Source: Albula goreensis (taxonomy: Eukaryota; Chordata; Actinopteri; Albuliformes; Albulidae). Taken from it: a stretch of DNA of 64,000 bases. Shown one piece after another: positions 13,551 to 59,500 of this stretch. The notes beneath the pieces were generated by a model. That model ran no database searches, was not told where the DNA came from, and worked only from the letters and a program-made list of their open reading frames with translations. Both the position numbers and the translations under genes were made by a program. The stretch's first letter is position 1. The number at the start of each line of letters is the position of its first letter. The stretch spans positions 47,819,405-47,883,404 of the forward strand of contig CM040743.1 in NCBI GenBank assembly GCA_022829145.1. The letters run 5' to 3'.

Positions 13551-13555
13551 AATAC

Positions 13556-14126
13556 CTGCAGACATTGAAGCCCTCCAGAACTGGAGTTAAACTGCAAACA
13601 CTGCCCCTCCAGGGCTGGAGTTAAACCTGCAGACACTGCTGCCCTCCAGGACTGGAGTTAAACCTGCAGACACTGCGGCCCTCCAGGACTGGAGTTAAAC
13701 CTGCAGACACTGCGGCCCTCCAGGACTGGAGTTAAACCTGCAGACACTGCGGCCCTCCAGGACTGGAGTTAAACCTGCAGACACTGTGGCCCTCCAGGAC
13801 TGAAGTTAAACCTGCAGACACTGCGGCCCTCCTGGACTGGAGTTAAACCTGCAGACACTGTGGCCCTCCAGGGCTGGAGTTAAACCTGCAGACACTGTGG
13901 CCCTCCAGGACTGGAGTTAAACCTGCAGACACTGTGGCCCTCCAGGACTGGAGTTAAACCTGCAGACACTGTGGCCCTCCAGGACTAGAGTTAAACCTGC
14001 AGACACTGCAGCCCTCCAGGACTGGAGTTAAACCTGCAGACACTGCGGCCCTCCAGGACTGGAGTTAAACCTGCAGACACTGCGGCCCTCCAGGACTGGA
14101 GTTAAACCTGCAGACACTGCCCCCTA
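13556..14126. repeat. 37-bp minisatellite, about 15 copies
   Basis: The unit includes CCTGCAGACACTGCGGCC, then CTCCAGGACTGGAGTTAAA. The core CTCCAG-GA-CTGGAG is a 6-2-6 inverted repeat. The same unit in the same orientation forms a second array at 25742-26455. Confidence 0.92.
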
Positions 14127-14129
14127 CAG

Positions 14130-25800: not shown

Positions 25801-28800
25801 GGACTGGAGTTAAACCTGCAGACACTGCAGCCCTCCAGGACTGGAGTTAAACCTGCAGACACTGCAGCCCTCCAGGACTGGAGTTAAACCTGCAGACACT
25901 GCGGCCCTCCAGGACTGGAGTTAAACCTGCAGACACTGCGGCCCTCCAGGACTGGAGTTAAACCTGCAGACACTGCGGCCCTCCAGGACTGGAGTTAAAC
26001 CTGCAGACGCTGCAGCCCTCCAGGACTGGAGTTAAAACATGCAGACACTGCGGCCCTCCAGGACTGGAGTTAAACCTGCAGACGCTGTGGCCCTCCAGGA
26101 CTGGAGTTAAGCCTGCAGACACTGTGGCCCTCCAGGACTGGAGTTAAACCTGCAGACACTGTGGCCCTCCAGGACTGGAGTTAAACCTACAGACACTGTG
26201 GCCCTCCAGGACTGGAGTTAAACCTGCAGACACTGCGGCCCTCCAGGACTGGAGTTAAACCTGCAGACACTGCAGCCCTCCAGGACTGGAGTTAAACCTG
26301 CAGACACTGCGGCCCTCCAGGACTGGAGTTAAACCTGCAGACACTGCGGCCCTCCAGGACTGGAGTTAAACCTGCAGACACTGCGGCCCTCCAGGACTGG
26401 AGTTAAACTTGCAGACACTGTGGCCCTCCAGGACTGGAGTTAAACTTGCAGACACACCTGCTAAATATAGACAGGCACGGAGGGGTAGAGGAGCTCTAGT
26501 CATGTGACCAGGTGTGGAATTTGGCAGGGTCAGCTTACACGCTTAGCACAGCGGGAGATGGAGGCATGGCACTCAGTGGTACATGGCATCATGAGATCTG
26601 TTTGTTTGACAGCCAACCTTTCATCTGCCAGACGCAATTCACAGCTCTGCGCCTCGCGCACTGTACATGATACCATTTCAGCATACTTTATCCTGAAAGC
26701 TTAACATTTATTTAAAGTTCCACACACTCCACCACCTTTGAAAACTTGTTGATCCTTAACCAGCTGATTCTCATAACTGTGAGTTGTGGCATGGTTCCTA
26801 AATTTTGAGGAAAATGTCCCGAATCAAAAATGGAGTAGTGAAATCAAGTTGGTAAAAATACATTGACTGAAGCTCTGCAGGCATGAAGTCTAATCAAAAC
26901 AGATTAATAACTGCCAAGCATTAAGTTTCTGTATGTAAACTTTATTGAATATGTTGGCCTGATTGTTTTTTAATTATGTATTTGTGGAAAAATTTTGGTT
27001 AAAGTTGTAGTAAAAACTGATCTTGACTGGATTTGATATAATACCTGTCACTCACCTTGACTGGTTTGATGCTGTAAGTACCTGTCACTCACCTTGATGG
27101 GGTTGGATTCTGTAAGTACCTGTCACTCACCTTGACTGATTTGATGTTGTAAGTACCTGTCACTCACCTTGACTGGTTTGATGCTGTAAGTACCTGTCAC
27201 TCACCTTGACTGGTTTGATACTGTGAGTACCTGTCACTCACCTTGATGGGGTTGATGCTGTAAGTACCTGTCACTCACCTTGACTGGTTTGATGCTGTAA
27301 GTACCTGTCACTCACCTTGACTGGTTTGATGCTGTAAGTACCTGTCACTCACCTTGACTGGTTTGATGCTGTAAGTACCTGTCACTCACCTTGACGGGGT
27401 TTGATGCTGTAAGTACCTGTCACTCACCTTGACTGGTTTGATGCTGTAAGTACCTGTCACTCACCTTGACTGGTTTGATGCTGTAAGTACCTGTCACTCA
27501 CCTTGACTGGTTTGATGCTGTAAGTACCTGTCACTCACCTTGACTGGTTTGATGCTGTAAGTACCTGTCACTCACCTTAACGGGGTTTGATGCTGTAAGT
27601 TTCACTCACCTTGACTGGTTTGATGCTGTAAGTACCTGTCACTCACCTTGACTGGTTTGATGCTGTAAGTACCTGTCACTCACCTTGACGGGGTTGAGGT
27701 TAGTAGTCATGATGATGCGGTGGAGAGGCCCCGCCAGTTTTGGGGGGAGCTTGGGCTCGCTGTCCTGGCCCTGGGGCTGGGTGTAGTACTCCAGACGCGC
27801 CCGAGAGAAAAAGTTATTGATCACAGTGACACAATCGTGCTGGCCTGGGGGAGGGAGAGAGAGAGTGAGAGAGGTGTGCTTTCAACATCTGTCGAATATG
27901 GGTGAATGTGTTTGTCATTTGAAGTGTGGGGGTGGAGAAGGTTGTTACGGTCTTTGTTCATTGCTCTTTATATCCCCTGCTTTAGCAACACAAGATTATC
28001 TTATCATGCTAATAGAAGACGTTTTGCATTTGAAAGAGGGTCTTTACAATTGACTCCATACTGATACACTGACCCCTGCTCCTCACTGACCACTGCTCCA
28101 CACTGACCCCTGCTCCACACTGACCACTGCTCCACACTGACCCCTGCTCCACACTGACCCCTGCTCCACACTGACCACTGCTCCACACTGACCCCTGCTC
28201 CTCACTGTCTACTCTTTCACTCAGACCCCTGCCCCTTCCCTCTCTCTTTCTCTTACCCACGAATGCCGCCATCTGAGCTGCAGTCCGACCCACGGAGTTC
28301 ACAGCGTCTGTCTCCGCCCCCGCGTCCAGCATCATCCAGGTGATGTCCGTCTTACCTGGCAGAACAGAAAAATTAGCACGGTGTAGCCATCCCGTACCTG
28401 AGAGGGCGGCGAACATTAGCGTGGTGTAGCTGTTCTGTACCGTACCTAAGAGGCCGGCGAACATTAGCACGGTGTAGCCATGCCGTACCTGAGAGGCCTG
28501 CGAACATTAGCACGGTGTAGCCGTGCCGTACCTGAGAGGCAGACGAACATTAGCATGGTGTAGCTGTGCCGTACCGTACCTGAGAGGCCGGCGAACATTG
28601 GCGCAGTGTAGCTGTGCCGTACCGTACCTGAGAGGCTGACAAACATTAACACGGTGTAGCTGTGCCGTACGGTACCTGAGAGGCCGGCGAACATTAGCGC
28701 GGTGTAGCCGTGCTCATGCTGGTCACAGTTGACGTTGGCTCCATGCTGCAGCAGCAGTCTGCACATGTCTGCTTCCCCCTTATAGGCTGCATGCATCAGA

Positions 28801-31800
28801 GGACTCATTCCATACTGGGGGGGGAGGGAGGGGGAGAGACGGGGGAAAGAGGAAGGGGGGCAGTGAGAGATGGGGAAGTGGTGAAAGGGGGAGGGAGGGA
28901 GGGGAGAAGTGATCGAGAAAGAGAAATGGAGGACAAGAGGGAGAGAGAGAATGGAGAGATGGAAGGGGAGAGAGACAGAGATAGAGATGAGTCACAGAGA
29001 GGTGGTGGAGGGAGAGTATCAGAGAACACGGGGAGGAATGATGGGGGAGAGGAGAGAAGGAGGGGAAGACCCAAGACAAAGGAACACGTTAGGCATTCAG
29101 TTCACAGAACCAGCTGAAAGACCAAACTACACTGACTACACCCTGGGAGAGATGGAGAAACACCTACCTCAGCCAGGAAAAATTACACATATTTTAAACG
29201 GTACCATAACAATGTAAAACACCTGTGCTTCCCAGTATGTCTGCCTTACAACGTTCTGTTGTACAAAATGGCAAAGAGCAAAACGAAAGCACTTTATTTG
29301 AGTGGACACAACACAAAGGGCACTGTCCAACACCCTTTGGATGTATACCGGTTTTCCTGCATTTGTTACCTTGAGAAGGTGCTGTTGTGCAGTTGCATAA
29401 AGTGTAGCAGCCAAACGGAGGCGGCTAACTCACAGCCCACGTGACACTGGCGTGAGAGAGAGAGAGGAACAACAAAAGAGCGAGCGGACGCATCTGATTC
29501 TGACAGACGCTCGGGGCACTTGTGAACTTTTGTCCCCAGCTGTTGCGTTTCGCCCCGCGGACGGCACCCCGCGGAGTCTGTGCGCTACATCTAGTGGCGG
29601 CTCGTCATTATCGCCGCGCCCTGAAGTGCTTCCTCCTCCGCCACTCCACAGTCGCCGCCACATGACGGCCAGACAAAAGGAAACATATGCTCCTTCTCCC
29701 AGCGCCATTTTGCTCTTTTTCCCCTGAGAGTGTGATCTGAGGACTTTAAACCTTGATCACACATTTCTTTCACTCGCTGCCTTTCAGTTCCCACCCGGAT
29801 CCCGGGAGACTCCTGTGTGTGTGTGCTGGTTTTCATTCCAACCAAACTTTCCATTCAGTAAAGGTTATTGAGGACGTTCTGCTGGATTCAATCAAATCCG
29901 CCAAGCCTCTTTAAAGGCATAAAGCAATTCAATCAAAACTTTTTTGATTGAATTGCATATATCCTATCAGACTAAGTGCGCTTCTCTAGCCTATTGAGTG
30001 TAAGCACCATGATTCTGTACTGAAACATCATACAGGCGTTTGATCTTTGCCATTTTCTTGGCCTTGGAACTCTTCAATTGTTTCAATGACCTGGTGTCTA
30101 CACTTCATGCATTTTGCACATTTAAATGTAAGTATTAGTTCCCTAACAACTGTTAAAAGTTTTATATACATGAATATTCGATATTCATTCTTTACAACTT
30201 GGATATCTATTTTCCCAAATGTGCTCTTAACACAGTACTTCACAAGTAACCAGACTGTAGTCTTGAGTTCAGAGTATACAACTGAGGGAACCACAAAAAG
30301 AACCTTTTAGGAAAGAAAACATTTGAATTTAATGATCAGAAATGAGTCATATGGACAGCAATCAGAGTTGTTTTAAATTTTAACCACATACAACTGAGGT
30401 CCAAAAAAATGCTGTTAAAAGCTCAGATAGAAAAGAGCAATGGGGTTAAAAATAAGGTCTCTTCAAAATGAATGAATGCAGCCGGAGATCAATCAAATGT
30501 GGCAATTGTGACATCACACACTGTTCCATATGGACTTGTGTGTTCTGACCAATCCCCTCCCTCCATTGCGTTCTGACCCCTCCCCCCCTCTTACCTCATC
30601 CAGACAGTTGACTCTGACATCCTTGCAGTCCAGCAGCCGTGAGGCTTCTTGAACGTTTCCTAATAGAAATTAATATCCAGGAATTAGCATATGAGCTACA
30701 TGAGCATACCCATACAGAAGGCCTATGTAATGAATACACATTGAGTTAATATCCAGGCATTAGCATATGAGCTACATAGAGCATACCCATACAGAAGGCC
30801 TATGTAATGAATACACATTGAGTTAATATCCAGGCATTAGCATATGAGCATATGAGCATACCCATAGAAGGCATAATGAATGCCATTGAGTTAATATCAG
30901 ATTAGGCCTAGAGCATACCCATACAGAAGGCCTAATGAATGCACACATTGAGTTAATATCCAGGCATTAGCATATGAGCTACATAGAGCATACCCATACA
31001 GAAGGCCTATGTAATGAATGCACATTGAGTTAATATCCAGGCATTAGCATATGAGCTACATAGAGCATACCCATACAGAAGGCCTATGTAATGAATACAC
31101 ATTGAATGGTTCAGTGTAGATTTAAATTTGACAGAGTTTCTATCAGTCTGATAGCTACATCACATGTACTCTATCAATGTAAAATGCACTAACCAGATTT
31201 GGGGTTGAAATAAACACTAGACACCTCTCTGTGCATGGGTGTATATGTAAGATAAATATATATCAAAGTTTCTGTTTGTGTATGTATGTGTGTATGAGAG
31301 AGAGAATCCCATCGGTTCAAATATGTATTATCAAATAACTGTCTTATATCTCACACAGTGGCTGCTAAAATGTGGAAAATGTCTCAGAATTTCTGCCGAA
31401 CTTTTACTACTATTTAAATAACAAAAAAATGATGACCCTGACCTGTTACATACAAGACTGACAAATGGAGCTAAATATAAACTAGTAATGATGTTGTAAT
31501 AAATAAGCTATAACTACACAGTGAGGGTTGAATTGCAATCGATTAGGTACAGAGAAGAGTGTCCATAAAAAAAGTGTGAAATATCACATTTTTCCAGGTG
31601 TGGTTATTTGGACATTTCATACATGAAACTGTCGATAATAAGTTATGGATTTAACACCTGTGAAATGCTGGCATCACGCCAATCTTGTCTCCACATGTGA
31701 AAATTTTGAAAGCAATTTTTCATATTAAATTTTTTGGAAGATATTATAAAAGAAGAACATACACCTCACTAACATTCAACAAAACCAACATAATACTGCT

Positions 31801-35584: not shown

Positions 35585-35985
35585 GGAGAGAGTACAGAAC
35601 AGCACCATGAAGTACAATTAGGGTTCCTAATTGTAGCTTGTAGCTCAAAGGTTACAGTGTACTATAATGGTTGGGGAGCTGGGCTTGTAGCTCAGAGGTT
35701 ACAGTGTAGTGTAATGGTTAGGGAGCTGGGCTTGTAGCTCAGAGGTTACAGTGTAGTGTAATGGTTAGGGAGCTGGGCTTGTAGCTCAGAGGTTACAGTG
35801 TAGTATAATGGTTAGGGAGCTGGGCTTGTAGCTCAGAGGTTACAGTGTAGTATAATGGTTAGGGAGCTGGGCTTGTAGCTCAGAGGTTACAGTGTAGTAT
35901 AATGGTTAGGGAGCTGGGCTTGTATCTCAGAGGTTACAGTGTAGTGTAATGGTTAGGGAGCTGGGCTTGTAGCTCAGATGTTACA
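35585..35985 (+). repeat. 47-bp SINE-head satellite, about 7 copies, plus orientation
   Basis: The unit reads GTGTAGTGTAATGGTTAGGG, AGCTGGGCTTGTAGCTCAGA, GGTTACA, like the RNA polymerase III head of a tRNA-derived SINE. Upstream is a block with GAACAGCACCATGAAGTACA and the hairpin ACAATTAGG-GTT-CCTAATTGT. The same unit and the same flank occur inverted at 41571-42430. Confidence 0.92.
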
Positions 35986-35989
35986 GTAC

Positions 35990-39280: not shown

Positions 39281-42200
39281 ATGAATACCGGTAAGCAGCA
39301 GAAGCCAGTGCTAACAGGCCAGCGGTTTAAGACCAGGAAAAGGGGTGAGTCCCACACACCTCCCGCCCCTCTTAAACCCCCAGCCATCCTGCAGGGGGAA
39401 GGGCTTTACTGGGCTGAAGCAGCCAGTCACTGTGCAGGTGGAAGGTGGGGATCAGACTTTAATGCTGTGTCTGACCTTTGACCCGACCTTTGACCCGACA
39501 GTGCCTTGCCCCTCCCCTCCACAGCTAGGGTCATTCAGCAGCATAGAAACACACACAAACACACAAGTATTTACAAACATTACCTCACTTGCTGGGACTC
39601 ACACACAGAAACTCACAGATACTCATACACACACACACAGCCACAGATATTCCCACAAACATACACAGACAGACACACACATACGTACATGTACCCAAAC
39701 ACACATACTCAGACATTAAGGTGTGCACACACATACTGCCCTCTCCCTCTCTTAAACCCGAGCTCTCTAGCTGCAATCAGTGTTACAGACTTCCTCTCCT
39801 TTTAGGGCAACAGCCAACACACAGAGTTCTCAAAACATTCTTACATCACCGCGGGGACGTGACAGTGTTTCCCGGAACACCCAAGCCACCCAGTGTTCCG
39901 CCGCTAGCCGCTGCTAAGCTCAGATAACAGGAAGCCAATCTCCAAATACCCCTGTTGTTTGACATGGAGACTGTGTTTTTAATAACGTCTGGCTGGCAAT
40001 CTTTTTCTCACTTGGGGGAACAGTCAGAATACATAGACTGCACTGCGAATGGTATGACAGACACCCAGAAACAGCTATATTTACATATGTGTCCGTGTAC
40101 ATGTGTGTTTATATATAAATGTGTTCATGATAATCCAGTATATATATATAAGCTTATCCTGTACACACACGCACACAAACATATATATATATATGTTTAT
40201 ATATATAAGCACACATAATCATGAGACATGACAAATGAAGGATGAAACTCATACCTTTAAACTATCAATTACAATAAACAGGTTTGTATTTACTCTCCTT
40301 TTTAATCAATCAAGCTAGTAACTGGGTTTATTTGGATGAATAATCAATGCCAACATTCCTTATCTTGACATAGTGTTTTTCTTAAAATCACTGTCTTGTT
40401 TACCATTTGGGACAGGTTGTGTGATTTGTGGGTGAATGTACTCTTCATTCTCTGTGCAGGAGTAATATTTGAGGATTGATGAATATGAAAATACCCATAA
40501 TAGAGCCGACAGTTACTCATGGAAAAGCATGTATCATTTTCAGCCAGCTGAGGTTCGTTTGTAGAAAGATAACGCCGTAGGGAGAAAGAGTAGTGCAAGG
40601 GACAATTAAGAGGACGGTTATCTGTGATTACCTGCCAGCGGATTACTCAGATAGTTGGCACAGTCGTTAATCAAGTCAAACAAAATAATGAAATGGAGGA
40701 CAAGAACCAGTTTAAAGGTAAGATTTGAGCTACTGCTCCAACCCCACGAGGTATTTCTGACAGTATATACGTATATTTGATTAAGTCTTTGGATACTTAA
40801 ATTGAGGCAAGACATAGCAATGAGTTATGCTCGTGGTTGATGTGTGTGGTTTACAGACATTGACCATCCTGTGTTGGTGTCCTTTTTACTGTTTGATATA
40901 AATATAAGCCAGCAGGGACGTTAAGGTCACTAGTGTGGCCCATTTCGCTGAACTCTTAACTCCAGGGCTCAAACGCCAGCCTGTTTAAAGCAGGGCTTAG
41001 GTCTGTGGTCTGTGGTCTGTGGCCTGTGGTCTGTGCTGGCACGTGTCTGAGTTGAGCTCTCTGTAATGTGGTCTGTCTCTGAGAGGGGAAGGAGAGGGGG
41101 TTTTAAGCTGCTCTTCCTCCATCTTTCCTTCTTCTGCTTTCTCATTCTGTTCTTCATCTCATTAACCCTCTCCTCCTCCTGGTCCTTCTCCTCCTCTTCT
41201 TACTTCTTTTCTTCTTCTCCCTCTCTTTCCCCCCTCCTCCTCTTCCTCCTCCCTCCCTCACAGATGAAAAGGAGAAGTTCGAGCCCACAGTGTTCAGAGA
41301 TACGATTGTTGGGGGGATCAGTGAAGCCGGAGGGGACCTCGATGCTGTAGCCAAGTTCCTGGATGTCACCGGGTCCCGCCTCGACTACCGTCGCTATGCC
41401 GACACCCTCTTCGACATCCTCATCGCTGGGAGCATGCTTGGTGAGTCCCACCCATTAAACCTTCAACTTCTGAGTTACAGTTTATCAGCAGTTTACAAAA
41501 ACCACTATTTTTTATAGGGTTAATGTCCTTTTTACTTTTTCACTGTAACTTTCACTCAGCTTTTTGTGCCCACCATAACCTCTGAGCTACAAGCCCAGCT
41601 CCCTAAGCATTACACTACACTGTAACCTCTGAGCTACAAGCCCAGCTCCCTAACCATTACACTACACTGTAACCTCTGAGCTACAAGCCCAGCTCCCTAA
41701 CCATTACACTACACTGTAACCTCTGAGCTACAAGCCCAGCTCCCTAACCATTACACTACACTGTAACCTCTGAGCTACAAGCCCAGCTCCTAACCATTAC
41801 ACTACACTGTAACCTCTGAGCTACAAGCCCAGCTCCCTAACCATTACACTACACTGTAACCTCTGAGCTACAAGCCCAGCTCCCTAACCATTTCACTACA
41901 CTAACCTCTGAGCTACAAGCCCAGCTCCCTAACCATTACACTACACTGTAATCTCTGAGCTACAAGCCCAGCTCCCTAACCATTACACTACACTGTAACC
42001 TCTGAGCTACAAGCCCAGCTCCCTAACCATTACACTACACTGTAACCTCTGAGCTACAAGCCCAGCTCCCTAACCATTACACTACACTGTAACCTCTGAG
42101 CTACAGGCCCAGCTCCCTAACCATTACACTACACTGTAACCTCTGAGCTACAAGCCCAGCTCCCTAACCATTACACTACACTGTAACCTCTGAGCTACAA

Positions 42201-45200
42201 GCCCAGCTCCCTAACCAATATACTACACTGTAACCTCTGAGCTACAAGCCCAGCTCCCTAACCAATATACTACACTGTAACCTCTGAGCTACAAGCCCAG
42301 CTCCCTAACCAATATACTACACTGTAACCTCTGAGCTACAAGCCCAGCTCCCTAACCATTATACTACACTGTAACCTCACAATTAGGTACCCTAATTGTA
42401 CTTCATGGTGCTGTTCTGTACCCTCTCCCCGCCGGCCCGATATGCCCCTGAAGGTGGTATTTATCAGCGCAAGGGCAAAGTGACGGCGCAGGGTTTAGCC
42501 AGATTAATGGCGTAATGCCTTCTAATCGCTGTCTGTGTGACAGACACACGACCGTGGCTAACCGCGCCGCGCTGCTATCTGCCTAGCACCACAGAGACGC
42601 TCTTTTGCTAGCTGTTTCCTGACTTCACCCACAAGCTGTGCCACCATGTAACCTGGCCCTGCTGCCGGGTGAAGCTAGGCAGGACTGGGTTTTGTTAGCG
42701 CTGACGCTGAGGAGGTGTGGGCTCCTATAGCGGTGAAGCTAGCGGTGAAGCTAGCTGAGGATAGCTTTGAAGCTAAGCTCCTGACTCAGTGTGATCATTA
42801 AAGATCCCATGGAGCTTAGACTGGGTGGTTCCCTGGTTTACTTTCTTCCTCTTCCTCTTCGTCTCCTTCAGTTGGAGAGAAAGCTTTAACCTTACGCTAT
42901 CCACTGTAACCTGAGCAAAAAAAAAAAAAACGATTTAGACCTGCCGTCGTAAACCTGTCATAACCAATAATTTCTGGGCGTGACCGATATTTCCTGACCA
43001 ATCATATCAAGCTTAATGAAGGCAGTTCTAAGAAACGGGCGGAGATTTGAACCGTTGATTCAAACATCAACTGCGAGACTCAGTGTAGTATTGGGCCGGA
43101 CAGTGAGAGGAGATGTGTGAAAATGCGTCACACTTTTACAAACCTGCCTGTGAGAGGCTGGGCAGTGCTCCGCTCTCCTGGTGTGGAGATCTCTGCGATC
43201 TCTGAGATATCTGGACATTTCATCTTCCAGTTCTCCAAAAGAGGAAGGGCTCTCCATTTCTGTTATATGACATGTGACTGCATTTTACACTGCAGGGAAA
43301 CCCCGATTTTATGCGCCCCGTTTTAACACGAATTCGGATATAACAAGAAGAGTCATCGGACCTTTTTTAGCTCAACATTGGGTCAGTTTGAACGTTGATT
43401 TTCTTGAACCACGATTTAGCGCAACCCCCTCCCCCCTTTTTTCGCGATGACATTTTATGGACCTCAGCGATCGCATGGATCCAATATTTCAGACCTCCCC
43501 AAACTGCACTTTCAGAAAAGGAGCTGCATCTTGGATCTCTGGAGACGTTATCCCGTCAGCTCAGAGACATTCACCGTTCACCGTCTGTGATCCGACACAG
43601 CGGCTGGTCGTCCTGCAGCTGAGCTCAGAGACGGGACGCCCCAGGGGATTATGGGATTAGACGGTGGAGAGGAAGCCGTGCATGCTGGGATATCCCCTCT
43701 CGCTCACACTCTGCCGTTTCTCCTCGTGGAGCTTCCTCTGAGTTTTTACACGGTGAATGAGAGTGTTTGCATGTGCCACACACCTGGGGAAAGCTCTGTG
43801 CTTATTTTCACTTATTTTTACATATTATTTCACATTTTTGTTGTGTATTAAAAGTGGGGGGAAAAAAGAGTGACTGGATAACTTAGAATTGTATTCAGTT
43901 TTGTTATCCAAGTTAAAATAGACATTTATTGAAATGAAAATCAAGCCGAAATCTTCTCTTAAGAACAGCTTGAGTGAGCTGGAGACGCAGTGAAAACAGA
44001 TGGGTCTTCGCTGGTTATGACTGAACAGAGCTGTGCGTTCAGTGGGACCGCATTGGGTATCAACCACAGTCACAAGCAGAGTAAATAATAAAGCCTGTTT
44101 ATTTTTCTTTCGTTGGTGCAATTAGCGTAATTAGCCCCGGGGGGGTCGATGTTGTGCCTAGCGTTCCCCAGGCAGTAGGTCCAGAGGCCTGCGGCTGCAC
44201 CCCTAGGGGGTAGGAACCAGTGGTGTATTGGAGTATTTACACATGTATATGGAGTATACCCACCTAAAGGTCTGGGTGACATTACCCACAATCCTCTACA
44301 ACTGAGAGCGCCTCAGTATGAAACCGCATCAGGTGCTGAAGAAGTCCAGGATGAACTTTGACCCCTGAACTTTAACCCCTTATGATCGAATGGAGTGCAG
44401 CGTGTGCATGTTGCGTGGCAACAGGTTCTATCTCTGGCTTCCACTGTTTAGGTTACAGTCAGGTTAGGTCAGGGTGAGAAACCAGACAGCCTACCACCTT
44501 CCCCCACCCCCCTTCAGCCAAAGTAAAGCTTGCTGTCCTTGTGAAATGGGGGAAAGGGGCGCTTGTTCCCGTCAGTCGATAGAGCCTCACCCCGCCTTGA
44601 CCCGCCCCGCCCCGCCCTCTCTAAACGGGGGTAATTAGCTCTCTATCTCCCCCTCTGATCCGAGTCTGAGCTCTGCCTGTCAACCCGAGTACAGCCTGAG
44701 GGCTGACCCCACGTCACGGTGTAAGCAACGGCATCGCCATGACGACCGGGGGACTCGGCGGTGCGCAGGGACTGCACGCGTGTGAAAAATGTGCATAAAT
44801 ATAATACATAAATAAATATAAATATGTTTTCATGAACTGGACATTAAAATATGATCAACATATTTCTTATACATATAAATTGATGGACTGTGTAGCAAAA
44901 TTACATAGTTTATTTTATTTTTACTTTCACTTTTTCAAACTTGCAGTTTACTGTATACTGTCACATACTGTAGGGTTATGTTTTATAGTGGTGAAAAGTT
45001 TCGGCAGCAGCTGATAAAGTATTCACAGGGAAGAAAAGGAGGAGAGAGGAAAGCAGTAAGGAGGTTAGGAGGGAAGCTACCTGAGTATTCAGATCGGACG
45101 CTGTTATTTTGGTGCTTCTCCTGGGTGACGGATACTGGGAAAATGTGGAATGCGTTTTGTGGAACATCGGCCTGTTTGTTTGCAGCCAGCGGGTCACCAT

Positions 45201-48200
45201 GAGAACGGGGTCGCCACGGTTATTGCCGACAGGCAGGTTGAGGACGTGGTTACCAGCTGCATGCCTCCCCTTCGGAAGGAACATTCCGGGGGGTCTTGGG
45301 GGTGGGGGCAGAGCTGTTTTAACCCCCCTGCTGTGGGTGTACATTCTCGGTCACACAGTGTTAATGTACAGACTTTCCACAGTGTTACATCACTGAGTCA
45401 CAACACCGGAATCACCCATAACTCAACCACACGACTCACATGATTGGTCCAAACACCCATCAATCAATCACTGCCTCGTAACGATTGGTCTCCATGTTGA
45501 TAAGCTGAATGCTCTACAGTAACAATCGGCCAATAAGTTGCTGAACTGATTGCTCTCTTGTAAATATGGAGCAGTACTCCCAGGGTTGGATTGGGTACTG
45601 ATATCAGGAAGTTTTGTTTTACAGACAGTTTGCATTGCTGGGAACATCTTGCCAGATTATGCATTAGAGACAGATACTTGGAGTACTCAGTACTGGACGT
45701 TCTGCACACTGAATGATGACACTAGCTAAGCTGAACGGCCTGATCTCATCATTATGTTCTTGTTTTCTTAGGTTGTAATGATTGGTCCAGATAAAAGAAT
45801 CACTGACTGTTGTACCAATCAGCTCACATGGCAAATTATTCATGCAACTTCACTCATTTGCATGGTGATTGTGTTCATCACCTGCTCTGTTTATTCATTA
45901 TTTGGTTGTTGGTTTTTGGACAGTATAAAGCATGGATATAACCTTTGGTCATTACTCTTGTTTGCCTCCCTTTCCCTCTCTCCCTCCCTCTCTCTCTTCA
46001 CCTCCCCACACTTCCACCCACCCTCCTTCTCCCCGTATCTCAGTGTAATGAGGTATTGTGCCGTGACTCTGCTGCTCCTGTCAGTGTAATCTCTGTAAGC
46101 AGGATGTGACAGGATGTGGAGCTCCTCTCTGTCCATCATCTCACTCCTCCTCCAGCATCCCTCTCTCAGTCTGTCCATCATCTCACTCCTCCTCCAGCAT
46201 CCCCCTCTCAGTCTGTCCATCATCTCACTCCTCCTCCAGCATCCCCCTCTCAGTCTGTCCATCGTCTCACTCCTCCTCCAGCATCTCACTCTCAGTCTGT
46301 CCATCATCTCACTCCTCCTCCAGCATCCCCCTCTCAGTCTGTCCATCATCTCACTCCTCCTCCAGCATCCCCCTCTCAGTCTGTCCATCGTCTCACTCCT
46401 CCTCCAGCATCCCCCTCTCAGTCTGTCCATCATCTCACTCCTCCTCCAGCATCCCCCTCTCAGTCTGTCCATCATTTCACTCCAGCATCATCCCCCTCCT
46501 CAGTCTGTCCATCATCTCACTCCTCCTCCAGAACCCCCTCTCAGTCTGTTCATCATCTCACTCCTCCTCCAGCATCCCCCTCTCAGTCTGTCCATCATCT
46601 CACTCCTCCTCCAGCATCCCCTTCTCACTCTGTCCATCATCTCACTCCTCCAGCATCCCCCTCTCAGTCTTTCCATCATCTCACTCCTCCTCCAGCATCC
46701 CCCTCTCAGTCTGCCCCCTGCGCATGCCGTAGTCAGCGATGGCCAGCGTTTCAACTGCATCCACTTTTAAAATATCACTTTGTAATGTATGTACCTGAAC
46801 TGTAATATTGGGTTGTTTACTGTTTTTGTATGGTTAGATCACTTGCAAAATAACATGATTTGTTGAAATTTGTTCATAATCATTATTGTGACTACATAAC
46901 CGCTTTCTTTTACGGTTGCCGCTGTTTATTGATTTGATTGTTTTGTCATCTTTAAATTTCCTTGACAGGTTAATCAACAGGTTCTCAGTGGTGTCATACA
47001 TTTATATTATATTTATATATATTTTATATTTTTCTGGTTGCTGGGACTTCAATCGATGTCTAAGCTGCTGCAAAACTTTGTTTCAGGCTATTACTTTTTA
47101 AATAATCCTTCGCCTGACCAGCAGGGGCGCTTTTAGCTTCTTGACCTTTGCCCCCCTGTTGACCTTTGACCATAACTTTTCCTCACAGCTCCAGGGGGGA
47201 CTCGAATCGACGACGGGGACAAGACCAAGGTGACCGATCACTGCGTGTTCACCGCCCCCGAGAATCACGCTGCCATCCGCAGCTATGCTCAGGTGAGCTG
47301 TCTGTCTGTCTGTCTCGTTTACGTATTACGCACACATTTAGGAGACTTTCTTAACCAAGAGTGACTTACACAGTTTACTTTTTACACGCATTTATGCAGC
47401 CAGAGTTTTCCACTGGATCACAGTGCTCAAAAACCTGCAACCTCTGAGTCCCAGCTCCAGCTCCCTAACCGTTATATTACCCAAACACCCAGAAATATGT
47501 GCTATTAAATACCTTTAAACCTTTATCAGGCCTTTGGGTGGCACAAAAGTCTCCTGTTCATTAAACAGCTGTGGAATAAAGAATAAAGTCACATTTTCAT
47601 GGTGCAGCTGGCAGTGCAATAGCACGGTGTTTGAGCTCCAGCCATGCTATCACTAGCTATGGCTGGAGGTCCACATCGGCGAACCAACAATTAGCTCAGC
47701 TGCTGTAGGAAAAACTAAGTGTTAAGCTAAGAGTTAAGCTGGTTAAAATTCACTCACATCAGTCTCACTGCTCACTCACTGGCGCCCCCACATGGGCAGC
47801 CTGGGAACTGCAGGATTTGTATGTCATATCTGCACCCCCCCACCTCCCCGTCTCGGTTTGTCTGTGGCTCAGGTGAACAGTGTTTTTTTTTGGGGAGGGG
47901 GCAGGATGAGGGATGAGAGTGGTAGCATTGGCGTGATGGGGCGGTTCTTGTCCCAGGCTTGGTGGGGGGGGTGTTGGGGGTGCTAATGCTCCTTAATCCC
48001 CAGGATATCCACTGTGTCACCAGAGAGCGTCCTTTTAACATAATCCTGTTGGATTAACTCTGTGGTTCTTTTATCACTCTGTCTCTCTCTCTTTCTGTCC
48101 GTCTCTCTCTATGTCTGTGACTCTCACTCTGTTTGTCTCTCTCTCCCTCAGGTGAACATTAATATCATATACAGACTGATGGGCAATCTTGGCCTTTTTA

Positions 48201-51200
48201 GTATCTGGGGTTTTGTGTACTTTGGATGTTGATGGTTCCCTGTGTTACTTTTTGAATTTGCTTGTTTGTTTGTTTCATTGTTGTCTGTAAACAAAGATGT
48301 ATATATACATACATATATATATACATGACGGTGGAAATGCAGCTGTGTTCTGTGTTAAATCAGAATGAAGAGTTAGGGCTGTCTCTCAGCCTGTGGCAGG
48401 GAGGTTCATATTTTGTAGCCAAATTTACGCAGCATCCTTCCTCTCCCAGACGGAGCCTAATGTCTGTGTTTTGGAAAGGGATGGGAGGTTTCTGGAGTGT
48501 AATTTAAAGTTTGTCTGTCCTGCATCCTGTGAGAGGACACACAGCTCTGTCTCACTCTGTTGGTGTTTGCAGTGTGAGCACGGCCTTCCCTCTGTAGGGA
48601 CCCAGTTCTGCGGCGTCAGCCCGTCTCCATGGCCAGGCTGCACTCTCTGAGTCTGCCTACCAATACCTCTGTCTGTCAGTCAGCCCATATCCCTCTCTCA
48701 GCCCAGTCCAAAATCTCATACTACACCCTGTATAGCAGGCAAAAATCAGTGCTCATCGTATGTAGTGTGTAGGAGAAATCTCAAACAGGCTGAATCAGTA
48801 TGCGAGCGTTACCTGGATGGCGTACTGCCTCCTGTAAAATTCTGCAGTGTGCAAGGCCTGCACACTGCGCTATCCCACAAGGCCGTTGGGTGGATAGATA
48901 CCAAAGAAGAAGATGGCAGAGTTCTCTGAAGTTTGATGACAGATGAACATCAGTTGTAAACTTCCAGCTGTCAGACTGAAGAAAATAGAGACTGAAAACT
49001 TGTGTACTGCACTGGGTAGTCAGCACTATGCTGATGTAAGAGCAGTACGCTTTTGTTCGAATTTAGTAGGCTCTGATTATTTTGCGAGTTCAGACGCAGG
49101 GTTTTTTGCTTTTTTGAGACATGCAAAATGTTAAACGACAGAAAAAGAAGCTGTTTTGCTCCACAGTCTCTTAAATACAGACTCTCTTTTGATCCTTAGT
49201 AACTCAATATTTTTATTTCCCCTGATTTAAAATGGTAATTTTATTCATAAATATTTACAGGTTTTCAATAAGCTCATACGGAGATACAAGTACCTGGAGA
49301 AGGCTTTCGAAGAAGAAATGAAGAAGGTAAACTTTGTTAAAAACTTTTTTTTTTACTAAGAGTTTTGGGTGTAGTGCATTTGATAGTGTGCAAATGTGTG
49401 ATGTTCTCAGATTACTGCAAATTGTACAAATTGTAATGACATCATAACATGAAATAATGAAGATGTTATGGTCAGGTCAGGAGTGGTTTTGCTGCAGATA
49501 GAGATGGCTCGTAGTAAGACTGTTCGCCATGCTAAACAAAAAGTCATGCAAGCTGGAGGTGTCTGATTGGAACGGTGTGGTACAGCGACACCTAGTGGAG
49601 GGACATGAAACTTCTCTTCGTTCAGATTTTTGAGCCGTGTACATTTCAAGAATGAAGGAATGGGGGAGGAAGGAAGGAAGGAATGAAGTGTCAAAAGAAT
49701 GAATGAAGAAAGAAAGGAAGGAGATGGGGAAAGGGTGTCAGATGGGGAAAGGAGGAAGCAAGGGAGAGAGGAAAGAGGGAACACAGGAAGGAGGAAAGGG
49801 GCAAGAGGGAAGAGTGAGCCGAATATTTGAACAGGTCCAGTGATTGATCCACTGTTTGATTGAATATGTGTGTGCGTGTCATTTCCTGTTCTGGGCGTGT
49901 CACTTCCTGTGTAGCTGCTGCTCTTCCTGAAGGCCTTCAGTGAGGCGGAGCGGACTAAGCTGGCCATGCTGACGGGGATCCTGCTGGCCAATGGGACGCT
50001 CCCGCCCTCCATCCTCACCAGCCTCTTCAGTGACAACATCGTCAAGGAAGGTCCGTTGTCATGCCGATGCTCCCTCATAGAATGAGTTCCTTAAAAAACT
50101 GATCTGGGTACATTCTGACATGCTATGTGTCAAGTTCAAGCTCAAAGTGTACATGTCTGCAGTGAAATACTTGCTCTTGCCTTCTCCATAATGACATGCA
50201 CTTGGGCCTGTATATGGATTTCAATACACACAACATCACGGACAGTTAACTCTGCATAGCACTTTTGTGGAAACATAAGTCTCCAAGGTGATTGGCTGTA
50301 CTCCATGGTAACTCTCCTGCACACCTGTGCAGGTATCTCGGCGACCTTCGCGGTGAAGATGTTCAAGGCCTGGATAGCGGAGAAAGATGCCAATGCAGTC
50401 ACCTCGGCCCTCAGGAAAGCTAACCTGGACAAGAGGCTTCTGGTGAGAGGGGACTACATTACCCACAATTCCAATGCAAAACACATACAGATTCATGCAC
50501 TTAAGCATTGGCACACGCACACAGACATGCCATCAATAGTGTGTCCATTTAAATACAGCTATAAATGACCTGGCAGGTGAAATTCAGCTCACTTTCAGTT
50601 TTTGTAGAATCTTTTCAGGCACAGTAAGGGGCAGCTGTCATATTTGTAGACCAGCGTTTTAGACCGCCATTAAAGGAGGATCAGGGCAGTGTCACTATCA
50701 CTCTGGATGGCAAATCTCACTCACAGCAGCAGGTGCATTTGAGGGTTGATTATGTCTCCCCCTGGTGGTCAATTACACGAACTGTTTTGAGAAGCATTTG
50801 CTCACTAGCGAATCACAGACAGCTATTGCAGAGGGTGAAACTGCAGTTATGCATCACATCCTGTTGTCTAACCATGGTGTTGCATGACCTGAGTCCATAA
50901 AATTGACATTTCTGTGAAAGTATGAGTATTTTTACTCACTCCTAAAATGACTTGCCACATGTCCTCATGTACATCTGTTCAAATATTACAGTGATATGAG
51001 TGTGACATGACTATCATAAATTTACTGACCATTTGAGGGGATGTTACTTTAGCAGCTAGTTGCTGTGAACTGTTGCATCACCACTCTGTGCTTCTTTTTT
51101 GCAATATTTTTTTCCAAGAAAGCCGAGAAATATGATTGGCCAGAGCGATCCTTTACAATAGTGTGATTGGCTGAGCTGTGTTCATCTCCACAGGAGCTTT

Positions 51201-53388
51201 TCCCGGCCAACAAGCAGAACGTGGATCATTTCTCCAAATATTTTAACGAGGCCGGCCTGAAGGAGCTGTCTGAGTTCCTCCGTCTCCAGCAGTCCCTGGG
51301 AACCCGCAAGGAGCTGCAGAAAGAGCTGCAGGAGCGCCTGTCTCAGGAGTGCCCCATCCGAGAGGTAATACACCTGCACACACCTGTGCTGCGCTTATTC
51401 TCACCTGTACACACCTGTGCTGCGCTTATTCTCACCTGTACACACCTGTGCTGCAATTATTCTCACCTGTACACACCTGTGCTGCGCTTATTCTCACCTG
51501 TGCATACCTGTTAACATAGTTCCTGTATAAACGTTTACACGCTTTTATATATAAGAGTGTCTCTTCTGAGAGTTAATGCACCTGCACACACCTGTGCTGC
51601 TCTTTTTATCACCTGTATACACAGTCCCTGTATATAGTAGCACACACCTTTGTATACAGTAGTGCTCCTTCTGAAAGGCGCTGCACCTGTATACACCTGG
51701 GTACATCTATACATCTGTACTGCACCTGAACACCACTATAGACACTTGCACCTTACCTGTACCCACCTGTACAGACATGTACACAGCTTGACACAAATCA
51801 CCTGTACACATCATTAATGCACCTTTTCACCTGTATAAAGGAATGTCCCATTGAAAGACTCTGCAAATTTACACACCTGTACCCTTCAACTGTGTGTTTG
51901 TGACACAGTGGTGTATTCTCTCTCCATAGAATGTGGTGTGTTTGACACAGTGGTATATTCTCTCTCTAAAGATAGTGGTGTGTTTGACACAGTGGTATAT
52001 TCTCTCTCTAAAGATAGTGGTGTGTATGACACAGTGGTATATTCTCTCTCTAAAGATAGTGGCGTGTTTGACACAGTGGTATATTCTCTCTCTAAAGATA
52101 GTGGTGTGTTTGACACAGTGGTGTATTCTCTCTCTAAAGATAGTGGTGTGTTTGACACAGTGGTATATTCTCTCTCTAAAGATAGTGGTGTGTTTGACAC
52201 AGTGGTATATTCTCTCTCTAAAGATAGTGGTGTATGTGAAAGAGGAGATGAAGAGGAACTCTCTTCAGGAGCACGCAGTGATCGGGCTGCTGTGGACCTG
52301 CCTGATGAACGCAGTGGAGTGGAACAAGAAGGAGGAGCTGGTCACTGAGCAGGCCCTCAAACACCTGAAGGTAAGGAACCCAGTCCTCACACTCACACAC
52401 ACACACACACACACTCAGACTTCACACACACACACACTCAGTCCTCACACTCACTCTCAAACACACACACACACACACTCAGTCCTCACACTCACTCACA
52501 CACACACACACACAAGTAAACTGACTGAAGTTTTTACCTATGTTATATTAATAGCATAGCAAGATATTTTCTGGTCCAAATGCTATGCCCTACCTGGGAA
52601 TTGAACCTGCAACCTCTGTCTCTCTGCCCTCCTCCCCAGCACTATGCCCCTCTCCTGGCTGTGTTCAGCACACAGGGCCAGTCGGAGCTGGTGCTCCTAC
52701 AGAAGATCCAGGAGTACTGCTACGACAACATCCACTTCATGAAGTCCTTCTCCAAGATCATCGTGCTCTTCTACAAAGGTGGGGAGATGATGATGAGGAT
52801 GGTGATGATGAAGATTGTTGTGCTGGTTTCTTGTGAAGACTGGAATGATAATGACTATAGCAATAATAGTGATACCGATGTGATGCAGGTTATGATGGTG
52901 ATGAAGATGATGAAGGTTGTGGTAATAATGATGATGAAGGTGATGAGGATCTTGCCGTTGATGTCTCTGTCCATAGCGGACGTGCTCAGTGAGGACACCA
53001 TCCTGCGCTGGTACAAGGACGCCCACGCTGCCAAAGGGAAGAGCGTGTTCCTGGAGCAGATGAAGAAGTTTGTGGAGTGGCTGCAGAACGCAGAGGAAGG
53101 TAACGCCCACACCTGTCTGAAGTGGCCAATCAGGATTAGGCCTGGTGAACATGTGACAGTGCTTCATATTTCGAGTAATGTACGGATCTCAGCTCACATA
53201 TTACCTGATTTTTTTGGGACTGACTTTCATTCTCAGGGGTGCTGAAACGTGAGCTATTGATCAAAATGTTTGCGATTCATTTGTATGGAACTATGAGATG
53301 CAGTGTCAAATATCAGCCACATGGGGGCAGTATTGATTTGTTTTCTCCTGTGTCTCCAGAGTCTGAGTCTGAGGGTGAGGAAGACTAG
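39281..53388 (+). CDS. bzw2: bzw2, eIF5-mimic W2-domain translation regulator
   Basis: Eleven coding exons: 39281-39344 (exon starts 39274), 41264-41440, 47189-47292, 49261-49326, 49915-50050, 50333-50442, 51194-51364, 52224-52370, 52640-52778, 52977-53099, 53360-53388. All junctions keep frame and give 421 aa (human 419). The protein starts [21 protein letters not shown] and continues [26 protein letters not shown] and [10 protein letters not shown]. It contains [19 protein letters not shown] and [13 protein letters not shown]. The C-terminal W2 (MI-C) domain, about 250-415, ends in the acidic tail [11 protein letters not shown]. The family (5MP) resembles the eIF5 C-terminal half, binds eIF2 and eIF3 and modulates start-codon choice; it acts in the cytoplasm. 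The ATG is the family start. The donors GTCCGT (exon ending 50050) and GTGGGG (exon ending 52778) are weak. The acceptor of the exon at 52224 lies in a 42-bp repeat. Confidence 0.96.
40860..41262. other. bzw2 intron with 10-bp repeats and long pyrimidine tract
   Basis: GGTCTGTGGT-type repeats lie at 41000-41036. From about 41110 a C/T-rich tract of some 150 nt leads into the exon at 41264. Confidence 0.6.
41571..42430 (-). repeat. 47-bp SINE-head satellite, about 17 copies, minus orientation
   Basis: This is the reverse complement of the unit at 35585-35985 (plus strand ACCTCTGAGCTACAAGCCCA, GCTCCCTAACCATTACACTA). It is followed by the same flank in inverse sense, with ACAATTAGG-TAC-CCTAATTGT and TGTACTTCATGGTGCTGTTC. 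It lies in the bzw2 intron after the exon ending at 41440. Confidence 0.92.
42431..46105. other. bzw2 intron, mostly unique
   Basis: Holds an A-tract at 42917-42930 and GC boxes (CCCGCCCCGCCCCGCC) at about 44598-44620. A run of modest open frames at 43050-43850 has no recognisable product. Confidence 0.4.
46112..46712. repeat. 43-bp minisatellite, about 14 copies
   Basis: The unit is CTCTCAGTCTGTCCATCATC, TCACTCCTCCTCCAGCATCC, CCC. Because 43 is not a multiple of 3 and the unit lacks stops, all three plus frames and a minus frame stay open for about 190-230 codons. Each copy holds an acceptor-like CTCCTCCTCCAG. Confidence 0.92.
47330..47480 (-). mobile_element. tRNA-headed V-SINE-like element
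   Basis: On the minus strand the head has GTTAGGGAGCTGGAGCTGGG and ACTCAGAGGTTGCAGG, and the tail has GTGTAAGTCACTCTTGG. It lies about 40 bp after the bzw2 exon ending at 47292. Confidence 0.65.
47490..49255. other. bzw2 intron, no further gene
   Basis: Unique sequence with pyrimidine-rich patches at 48070-48150 and a short TA-rich run at 48299-48325. Confidence 0.4.
51368..51510. repeat. 31-bp tandem repeat just after a bzw2 exon
   Basis: The unit ACACCTGTGCTGCGCTTATT, CTCACCTGTAC occurs about 4 times, starting a few bases after the donor of the exon ending at 51364. Looser CACCTGTAC repeats go on to about 51830. Confidence 0.88.
51893..52235 (+). repeat. 42-bp array carrying eight copies of a bzw2 splice acceptor
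   Basis: The unit is TTTGACACAGTGGTATATTC, TCTCTCTAAAG, ATAGTGGTGTG. The true acceptor is TCTCTCTCTAAAG before ATAGTGGTGTATGTG, with the exon starting at 52224. AG ends recur every 42 bp at 51929, 51971, 52013, 52055, 52097, 52139, 52181 and 52223. Reading from any of them stays open and in frame with the exon, adding 14 codons ([14 protein letters not shown]) per unit. The first copy ends CCATAG, closer to consensus than AAAG. Confidence 0.95.
52384..52516. repeat. (CA)n array after a bzw2 exon
   Basis: CA runs separated by CAGTCCTCACACTCAC blocks, starting 13 bp after the exon ending at 52370. Confidence 0.88.
52780..52955. repeat. GAT/GAG-rich repeat filling a short bzw2 intron
   Basis: GATGATGAGGATGGTGATGA-type triplets start in the donor region of the exon ending at 52778 and recur until about 22 bp before the next exon at 52977. 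Confidence 0.75.
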
Positions 53389-56554: not shown

Positions 56555-59500
56555 ATGGCGTGCGGCGGCTTTACCTGCTCCAAGAACGCTCTCTGTGCGC
56601 TCAACATCCTCTATGTTGTAAGTATGCGCTGTCGCAATTGACCATATGGAGCAACACGACATAAAATCTCATTCAATGGCCTTTGGTTCTGGTTCATAAA
56701 ACACCTTTTCAAAATATGAATAAATTTATATAGTCGATACTTTACAAATGTGTACTGAGATTGAGTAAGCAACGCTGTAATTAATTATTCAGGGAGCTAA
56801 ATTTGCCCGCTATTAAACTGGGTCCCGTCCTGGAGGGTCCGGTTTCATCTGCTGTCAGGCCAGGGTGGAAAGTCGTTTCAGCAATAACAGCGAAATTTAA
56901 AACACTTCTCTCGGCTTTCATCGACTCACTTCCTAATCTCTACTCTCTCCACTACGGACCATCCTGTTATTGTTGTGTTAAAGCTTCACTCTCTCGCTTT
57001 GTTTCTTCTGAGCTGACTGGCTTTCGGTATTTTCCATACCAGTGTAGAATATTCACAGATTTTACTTTTTAAAATAAGCATTCTCCTGCTGACAGCCAAC
57101 GCGTTTTGTTAATTATAAGTCTATCTCTAAAAATATGTTGCCAAATGACGAAAGCAAGGGGTGACCAGGATTCATGTAACCCAAAGAGCATGGTTCGACA
57201 GTTCTATGAGCCTTGTATAGCGTTAACTGTCCTGGGGTAAAGGTCTTACAAGAAAGTCGACCTGCGACAGTTCATTTTTACTGTATTTCACTCTCAAATA
57301 GCATTTTTTCACGTAAACTGTGCCGCACACACACTCTGGTGCGCTAGGTGTTCTGCACATTTGTCCCGTGTTTTGGTTTTATCGCGTCCTGTGAGGGTGG
57401 AGCAGATAAAGCTTGTTCAACGTCCAGCCTCAGCACGCGCTGCCGGGGCTGTAAGCGCGAGCTCAGCCTCGGAGGCTCCGCACGGTGCAGCTCGAGCAGG
57501 TGTCTCCAGACTTTAAAATCTCAACGTCACCTGAAGTGATCAGCATAGAGCGCAACGCCACCTCAGTAAAACCGTTAAAATCCTTTGTCTACGACACAAG
57601 TACTTGGAATCTGGAATCATTTGTAATGTTCGGATGTCATGTAACTGTAGAAGATATGCAGTGTGAACTTATTCATAAAGCACTTGATTATGGCAGCAAC
57701 TGCAATATTGTTTGATATTTGTTTTGCTAAGGACCCCTCTTGAGCTCAATTGTTGGTCTCAATGTTGGAATTAGTTTTATGCAAACAGCACTGGAGAAAT
57801 CTGAGATAAAGAGGAACCCTTTTCAAATGTCAGATTATTATATGACCAAAGAATAAGGTCTATGTGACAAAATCACAAAATAAACATTTATTCATGAAAT
57901 CTTGTGGTTATTTTTTGCAATCTTACACCTGCTGGAAGAGGCTGTCAGATTTTTTTTTTTTTGTCATTATGAAATTATGCATGTTGCATTTTAAGTCAGT
58001 TTTGAGATTAAGCTGGTATGCATACAAGAGGGTTCTGGAATAAAGAAAATAATTATCATGGAATTATCATTCTGCTTCTGACTCGCATGGAACATTTGTG
58101 GTCTGATTCTGCATACTGTGCAGTTTGTTAGGTAACACAGTGAACATTCTGGCCCAAAGGAGAGATAGATTAGATTAGATAATACTTTATTTTCTGTTTT
58201 ACAAAGCTGCTTTTATGCAACACAAACAAAACGCACTGTAAAACATGATATGGTCGCAGTATTTATGAAGTTAATGCAACCGTTTGCATGGATCCTTTTG
58301 AGAGGTATTGGCTTGCTTTACTTTTTCCAATCTTCTGAAAATACTTAATTTTAGGAGGGTTGAGAGTAAGGGAGCAGAATGCACCTGCAGGACAGACACA
58401 AGGAGAGCAGTGATTGGACAGACAGAGAGCACACAGGTGCTTGTGTAAGCAGGCTGAAAGGTTAAAGTTCATTCTGTAGACATGGCAGCCTCTGTTCTTT
58501 TGGGTCTGGGAGATGATGATTTTTTATTATTTATTATTATTATTATTGTTGTTGTTGTTGTTGTTGCATTGGCTGTTGTAATAATTATAATAATAATATC
58601 AAATACAAACTGAAAATCCAATAAAAATCATAAATGGTACTGTGTGTGAATTATGATTTGTATAATTTTCTACAATTTATATCTATATATTTGCAATACA
58701 TTATATATATTGTAATTGTATAAATATATAACAAATATTGTTAGGGTTTGGGTTTGGGTTTGGGTTTTGATTAGGGTTTGGGTTAGGGCTAGGGCTAGGG
58801 TTAGGGTTTGGGCTAGGGTTAGGGATTAGGGTTAGGGTTAGGGTTAGGATTAGAGGGTTAGGGTTAGGGCTAGGGCTAGGGCTAGGGTTAGGGTTAGGGT
58901 TAGGGTTAGGGTTAGGGTTAGGGCTAGGGCTAGGGGCTAGGGCTTTAGGGCTAGGGCTAGGGTTAGGATTAGAGTTAGGGCTAGGGCTAGGGTTAGGGTT
59001 AGGGCTAGGGTTAGGTTAGGGTTTGAGTTAGGGCTTAGGGCTAGGGTTTGGGTTTGGGTTAGGGCTAGGGCTAGGGTTAGGATTAGGGTTAGGGCTAGGG
59101 TTAGGGTTAGGGTTCGGGTTCGGGTTAGGGTTAAGGCTATGGCTAGGGTGAGGGAGAGGGCGAGGGTTAGGGTTAGGGTTAGAGTTAGGGCTAGGGTTAG
59201 GGGGCTAGGGCTAGGGCTAGGGCTAGGGTTTGGCTAGGGTGAGGGCGAGGGTTAGGTTAGGGTTAGGGTTAGGGCATCAGCCAGCCGCTTTCTCTCAGCA
59301 CACTGGTCATGATTCCATTTGGATTATCATTTACGTTTGACTCCTCCATTCAGGTTAAAAGTGAAAATAATTCTCTTTTCTGTATATCTTTCCCCATCTC
59401 TTCCCCCTCTTCTGTCCTTCTTCTGTCTGTATCTCTCCATCTCTCAAACTTCCTCTCTCCCCCAGATGGTGAGTTTGCTGATGGTCGGCATAGCGGCGTG

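Follow-up and report, generated by a model that had tools for sequence, protein, structure and literature searches.

Eight in-frame copies of a splice acceptor in a minisatellite at a bzw2 intron/exon border of Albula goreensis

What does a gene make of an exon whose splice acceptor is repeated in tandem? The question is raised by bzw2 in a 64-kb window of Albula goreensis DNA (the whole stretch that was analysed), from a 932-Mb assembly, where it is located ~2.1 Mb short of the end of the 50.0-Mb contig C3. One bzw2 intron ends in a 42-bp array that presents eight AGs to the following exon, and the choice among these is left open by general splicing rules. Probing the window by tblastn with human protein sequences mapped three genes: ankmy2 (minus strand, ~32.3–23.1 kb), bzw2 (39.3–53.4 kb), and tspan13 (56.6–61.8 kb). 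From these maps 46 splice junctions were placed, every one with GT or AG. The array's host is recognisable as BZW2/5MP by a 5MP HEAT domain followed by a C-terminal W2 domain, its exon-joined model of 417 aa matching PF25504 at 1.4e-95 and PF02020 at 8e-25 in Pfam.

The array occupies the 3′ end of an 859-nt intron (51365..52223, plus strand). Upstream is an exon at 51194..51364 (+) that ends in ECPIRE with the donor GTAATA, and downstream is an exon of 147 nt at 52224..52370 (+), followed by an intron of 269 nt. Tandem Repeats Finder (TRF) delimits the array at 51894..52233 (+), with a period of 42, 8.1 copies, 95% matches, and no indels; with head-to-tail units in the range of ~10–100 bp, it is a minisatellite. 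In register with the exon start at 52224, the common unit is ATAGTGGTGTGTTTGACACAGTGGTATATTCTCTCTCTAAAG, and it contains a 3′ splice site in full, with pyrimidine tract, AG, and first exon bases, mostly together with a branch-like TTGAC. The AGs end at 51929, 51971, 52013, 52055, 52097, 52139, 52181, and 52223. A 24-base core of the unit was matched eight times in the window at up to three mismatches, compared to a maximum of zero in 100 shuffles. The original prediction had described both the contents of this unit and eight acceptor copies with AGs at exact 42-bp steps from 51929 to 52223; TRF and register alignment confirm that this observation was real and precise, while the interpretation placed on it is, as a whole, partly supported.

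The copies are not equally alike. Seven of them (51930..52223, +) are identical to one another at 39–42 of 42 positions and each ends in AAAG, whereas the intron-side copy (51888..51929, +) is the most divergent (31–33/42 identical to the others) and ends in CCATAG, both endings being as originally described. Such a distribution is as would be expected of an array under ongoing homogenisation. Six of the eight copies have TTGAC 26 nt ahead of their AG; it is absent from those ending at 52055 and 51929, the latter being without a consensus branch motif though it is the upstream-most and best-scoring copy. Elsewhere in bzw2, a second array (31-bp × 4.5, 51371–51511, +) starts within the same intron, 7 bp past its donor, and does not span that donor. 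A 42-bp × 14 pyrimidine-rich array at 46128–46713, 475 bp ahead of acceptor 47188 in a bzw2 intron, has CCTCCAG and CTCTCAG in most units and is acceptor-like in appearance; it spans no known junction.

The ancestral site among the eight can be recognised from paralogues. Eighteen bzw2-like matches were found in the genome, all in three places: the window gene, C5, and C21, the latter two taken to be bzw1 paralogues. Both have an intron at the same position and phase as the array-bearing bzw2 intron. Their upstream exon ends in ...GAC|GTGAG, and the next exon, CAG|ATC AT(T/C) GC(C/T) TA(C/T) GT(G/C) AAG GAG GAG ATG AAG (IIAYVKEEMK), aligns to bzw2 free of gaps. TRF found no array in the homologous intron on C21 or C5, and neither paralogue has residues inserted at this junction. 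Because the paralogues share the intron and do so without the array, 52223/52224 is the ancestral junction, in agreement with its earlier designation as the normal one, and any upstream AG would consequently add residues. An intron common to both bzw1 paralogues also rules out intron gain at bzw2 by tandem duplication. No retrocopy that might serve as a fossil of the spliced mRNA was found, as all 18 matches fall in the three places named above. A search for relatives of the exon in viral contigs gave 11 pattern matches, of which none was confirmed.

The anatomy of the array is explained without recourse to a special function. It is probably a junction-spanning minisatellite with its exon-nearest copy in use and with occasional in-frame leakage, and this simpler account is favoured here. 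A segment of ~42 bp across the bzw2 intron/exon border would have been tandemly duplicated, presumably by slippage or unequal exchange, and the array would then have grown to eight copies. The copy at 52223 would make the conserved protein, the other seven would normally leave with the intron, and the occasional leakage would bring n × 14 residues into the bzw2 protein. Duplication across a junction always leaves the exon whole and next to an undamaged splice site, with the spare copy entering the intron, and for this reason growth of an array may be tolerated as long as the exon-side copy is used or, for units divisible by three, whichever copy is used. The stretch at 51894–51908, ahead of the array proper, is identical to exon positions 52230–52244 at 12 of 15 positions in register, and the array unit is identical to the exon start at 17 of 21. 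The former match could be a slippage seed or a decayed copy, and it does not decide between the two.

The upstream AGs are by no means poor acceptors on paper. With 52223 itself left out, the other 22 of the 23 known window acceptors gave a matrix on which 51929 scores 7.30 and 52223 scores 5.58, the six sites between them also scoring 5.58 (one 5.78), relative to a leave-one-out median of 7.19 for the 23. A second, approximate vertebrate matrix gave 10.5 for 51929 versus 8.8 for 52223 with an identical ranking, and the first copy is therefore stronger than the normal site by both measures, as had been predicted. Together with the branch motif at six of eight copies, these scores make most units credible as complete acceptors, and the role of the upstream AGs as acceptors is itself credible but unproven. 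For human competing acceptors at least 20 nt apart, a preference for the upstream one is reported, which is strong with intron definition and weaker with exon definition (PMC9225289). As the first copy combines the upstream position with the best score, the main site may be other than 52223. With every site in frame and scoring equal to or better than the normal one, these same human data (PMC9225289) could be taken to mean that the upstream acceptors are used regularly, generating a family of bzw2 proteins extended by n × 14 residues, over a range set by individual copy number. One could go on to propose that the long exon from 51930, beginning after the best-scoring AG and the first in line, is the main form, and that its 98-aa repeat is a constitutive, lineage-specific addition.

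The predicted insert speaks against both proposals. Translation bears out the claim that all eight AGs are in frame and could add up to 98 residues in 14-residue steps, as no stop codon interrupts the frame from 51930 across the seven units of 14 residues (98 aa) and on into the bzw2 exon. Openness alone is weak evidence, since 37% of mononucleotide shuffles of the unit leave the exon frame open and two of the three frames through the array are open. The 98 residues are very hydrophobic (GRAVY +1.36, versus −0.19 for the exon) and include 8 Cys and 7 Trp. The units differ by I>N in the first and then by L>M, V>A, and Y>C once each, so that the codons that differ, which are few and thus weak evidence, are non-synonymous in four of four cases and give no indication of protein constraint. 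Use of the upstream AGs would expand the exon from 147 to as many as 441 nt, in excess of 250 nt, and neither bzw1 paralogue has an insertion. Regular use of the upstream acceptors is, in light of these points, unlikely. The long exon as main form faces all of them and, in addition, the weaker branch motif of the first copy and the failure of the long exon (51930–52370) to match any Pfam family at E up to 1, and can be given very little credence. The array was likewise rejected as a coding repeat domain, there being no Pfam match and no sign of constraint in the few codons that differ. The insertion point, placed by offset at about residue 272/273 of the 417-aa model, falls between HEAT_5MP1_2 (12–252) and W2 (337–413); the proposal of length variants inside the W2-domain region does not hold for W2 as Pfam delimits it. 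A functional reading of the upstream AGs is, then, possible but unproven.

The closest known system is the VNTR in intron 18 of human ABCA7, whose 25-bp unit has the exon 18 donor as its first two bases and whose length varies from ~12 to 427 units (PMC5954066). As at bzw2, a minisatellite abuts an exon and its unit includes that exon's splice site. The ABCA7 array, as reported, lies on the donor side with a 25-bp unit that shifts the frame, whereas that of bzw2 lies on the acceptor side with a 42-bp unit that preserves it, and most bzw2 units hold a branch motif, tract, and AG, unlike those described for ABCA7. A transcript retaining one unit has been reported in RNA for ABCA7 (PMC5954066), and with this precedent leakage into the upstream bzw2 copies is plausible.

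Donor-side arrays resembling that of ABCA7 were found twice in ankmy2. The first (28392..28713, minus strand) covers the 3′ end of an exon and its donor at junction 28675, with units of 42–48 nt. The 320-nt intron concerned (28356–28675) consists entirely of seven such repeats of the preceding exon's end and donor, each beginning with GTAC and ending with AG, and the last unit supplies the acceptor; the first three donors past the true one are in frame and the next three are out of frame. The second (27042..27697, minus strand) is a 37-bp array covering an exon 3′ end and its donor at junction 27683, with 18 AAG|GTGAGT sites including the true donor, at steps of 37–38 nt with one of 34. A 77-bp ankmy2 array (30670..31105, minus strand) is borderline, lying 11 bp from acceptor 30659, and was not counted as spanning. 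Introns are said to have arisen from tandem arrays, with tandem duplication multiplying splice sites, in a model reportedly put forward by Zhuo et al. in PNAS in 2007. The bzw2 array likewise multiplies splice sites by tandem duplication, but without intron gain, and the all-repeat ankmy2 intron resembles that model more than bzw2 does.

Three of the 18 window arrays with a period of at least 25 and at least 2.4 copies span a known junction, where random placement of one unit would expect 0.38–0.50 (P 0.006–0.012, a range that reflects the unit length chosen for two arrays and the stretch allowed); for a first set of 15 window arrays, P was 0.003–0.013. The test was made after the cases had been seen; the local excess reaches significance, though largely post hoc. 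Outside the window, the loci L002–L051 contain 15 arrays by the same thresholds, at least five of which span a junction; L020, a repeat of L048, was left uncounted, and the arrays of L034 and L036, being without a gene model, were left unjudged. At L035 (C3:48300000–48309000), which was picked by position only, three of five arrays are junction-spanning (expected 0.11–0.22, P 9e-5 to 7e-4), one at a donor and two at acceptors (291–443, 6385–6832, and 7122–7387 of the locus). This locus holds a FAM117-family gene that we take to be glcci1.

Two of the remaining loci are in myosin genes, which were selected around exons and are junction-dense. At L048 on C23, a 38-bp × 17.7 array (6471–7141) repeats an exon end (...SFQTVSALFR) together with its donor. 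The first copy reads GTAGGA and all later copies read ATAAGA or ATAAGG, with the consequence that the decoy donors are dead, AT replacing GT in every copy after the first. The 42-bp array at L016 on C14 (2170–2930) adjoins an exon start and spans a donor junction deduced from the donor consensus and Pfam; a degraded copy of the exon start (GTGAACTACCCAGTGGGCGCTCTG) lies at its far end, as would be the case had the acceptor been part of the first duplication. These loci bear on another proposal for bzw2, namely that the array was selected because several acceptors would raise the chance of U2AF/U2 finding the exon, whichever copy is used. Retention of the branch motif at the same distance in six of eight copies, and similar arrays at other junctions, would fit such avidity, but the later L048 copies have lost the donor GT, the opposite of what it predicts, and homogenisation yields uniform units anyway, which makes selection of this kind highly improbable. 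It is harder still to credit that the assembly is at fault and that the copy number, or the array itself, is wrong. Tandem arrays are generally error-prone in assemblies, but the bzw2 units carry private differences in register, a DNA search found the array sequence once in the assembly, and similar arrays occur at many places.

A genome-wide probe of three AAGGTGAGT spaced 20–50 bases gave 86 matches, versus 103 for the reversed word as control. Grouped, these represent 18 places for the probe (one being ankmy2) and 10 places among the 100 listed of the 103 control matches, with a one-sided binomial of 0.09, or 0.24 if the three unlisted matches are three more places. There is no clear genome-wide excess of minisatellites at donors over the control word, and given the 86 and 103 matches a special preference of minisatellites for junctions is not established. 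Because AAGGTGAGT is often a true donor, arrays at exon ends are explicable by proportional origin. Judged by their flanks, five of the 17 non-ankmy2 places have an exon ending at the array, one more probably does (C14:232971, without a Pfam match), and 11 have none, one of these lying in an intron of a TPR39-like gene. Two of the five are above Pfam's cut-off (Topoisom_I_N and Vma22/CCDC115), two are below it (Carn_acyltransf and RhoGEF), and the fifth is without a Pfam match and resembles DOCK proteins. Arrays at exon ends are, in short, not rare in this genome.

Location within contigs was also recorded, with 8 of 18 probe places and at least 2 of 10 control places (C9 and C20) lying no more than 1.5 Mb from a contig end. 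Arrays with a period of at least 15 and at least 2.4 copies number 24 in the 64-kb window and 7 in 27.6 kb of three other distal C3 stretches; the remaining stretches, mostly compact myosin genes that are not a neutral control, have 6 in 155 kb. Human subtelomeres are reported to be VNTR-rich (PMC7608644). Between tspan13 exons, 2.1 Mb from the contig end, the window also contains a long hexamer array (58740–59274) with a GTTAGG consensus close to the telomere repeat, in 88 copies with 82% matches. One 37-bp unit occurs at two places (13554–14137 and 25772–26455), and one 47-bp unit occurs in opposite orientations at 35636–35987 and 41576–42378. Both are dispersed minisatellite families, a hint that arrays, or an element carrying them, have spread.

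Related phenomena are described in other systems. In human genes within segmental duplications, internal tandem repeats located at exon-intron boundaries are reported to alter splicing, with units averaging 30 bp in 4 copies and 27 intron modifications after manual inspection (PMC2812944). Those cases, as presented, concern human paralogues and novel introns, whereas at bzw2 the repeat took in an existing junction of an old intron shared with bzw1. NAGNAG sites are alternative in-frame tandem acceptors 3 nt apart (PMC3250501), and differ as described from the bzw2 acceptors, which are spaced at 42 nt and have separate tracts and, in most copies, separate branch motifs. In Caenorhabditis elegans, the dispersed intronic minisatellite family CeRep25B has been linked to multiple alternative splicing, proposedly via regulatory motifs (PMC4039745); it is like the bzw2 array in tying an intronic minisatellite to splicing choice, and repeated splice sites are not part of its description as summarised there. 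Within the openly licensed literature, as represented by titles and the beginnings of abstracts, we recognised neither a minisatellite on the acceptor side made up of complete in-frame 3′ splice sites nor junction-spanning minisatellites as a common feature of fish genomes, which is weak evidence of novelty.

It is tempting to suggest, if only tentatively and with the odds against it, that minisatellites repeatedly take in junctions, that a sizeable set of conserved genes borders its exons with arrays of their own splice sites (bzw2, ankmy2, the FAM117-family gene, myosins, a topoisomerase I gene, a CCDC115 gene, and others), and that in-frame units among them provide standing length variants that are mostly hidden until the splice balance shifts. 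Taken more widely, the pattern points to a simple way in which repeats could grow on splice junctions without breaking genes, and changes in repeat length at such arrays could sometimes alter splicing; the human counterpart in ABCA7 is reportedly associated with disease risk. Gene models beside junction-spanning arrays need care, since wrong exon ends and false protein repeats are possible. The bzw2 intron is itself a natural series of near-identical, complete, in-frame acceptors whose true site is given by two paralogues, and it could be used to ask which site vertebrate splicing favours: the first, the strongest, or the one nearest the exon. Were upstream copies indeed used, the unit being a multiple of three, changes in copy number would supply bzw2 with in-frame variants of protein length.
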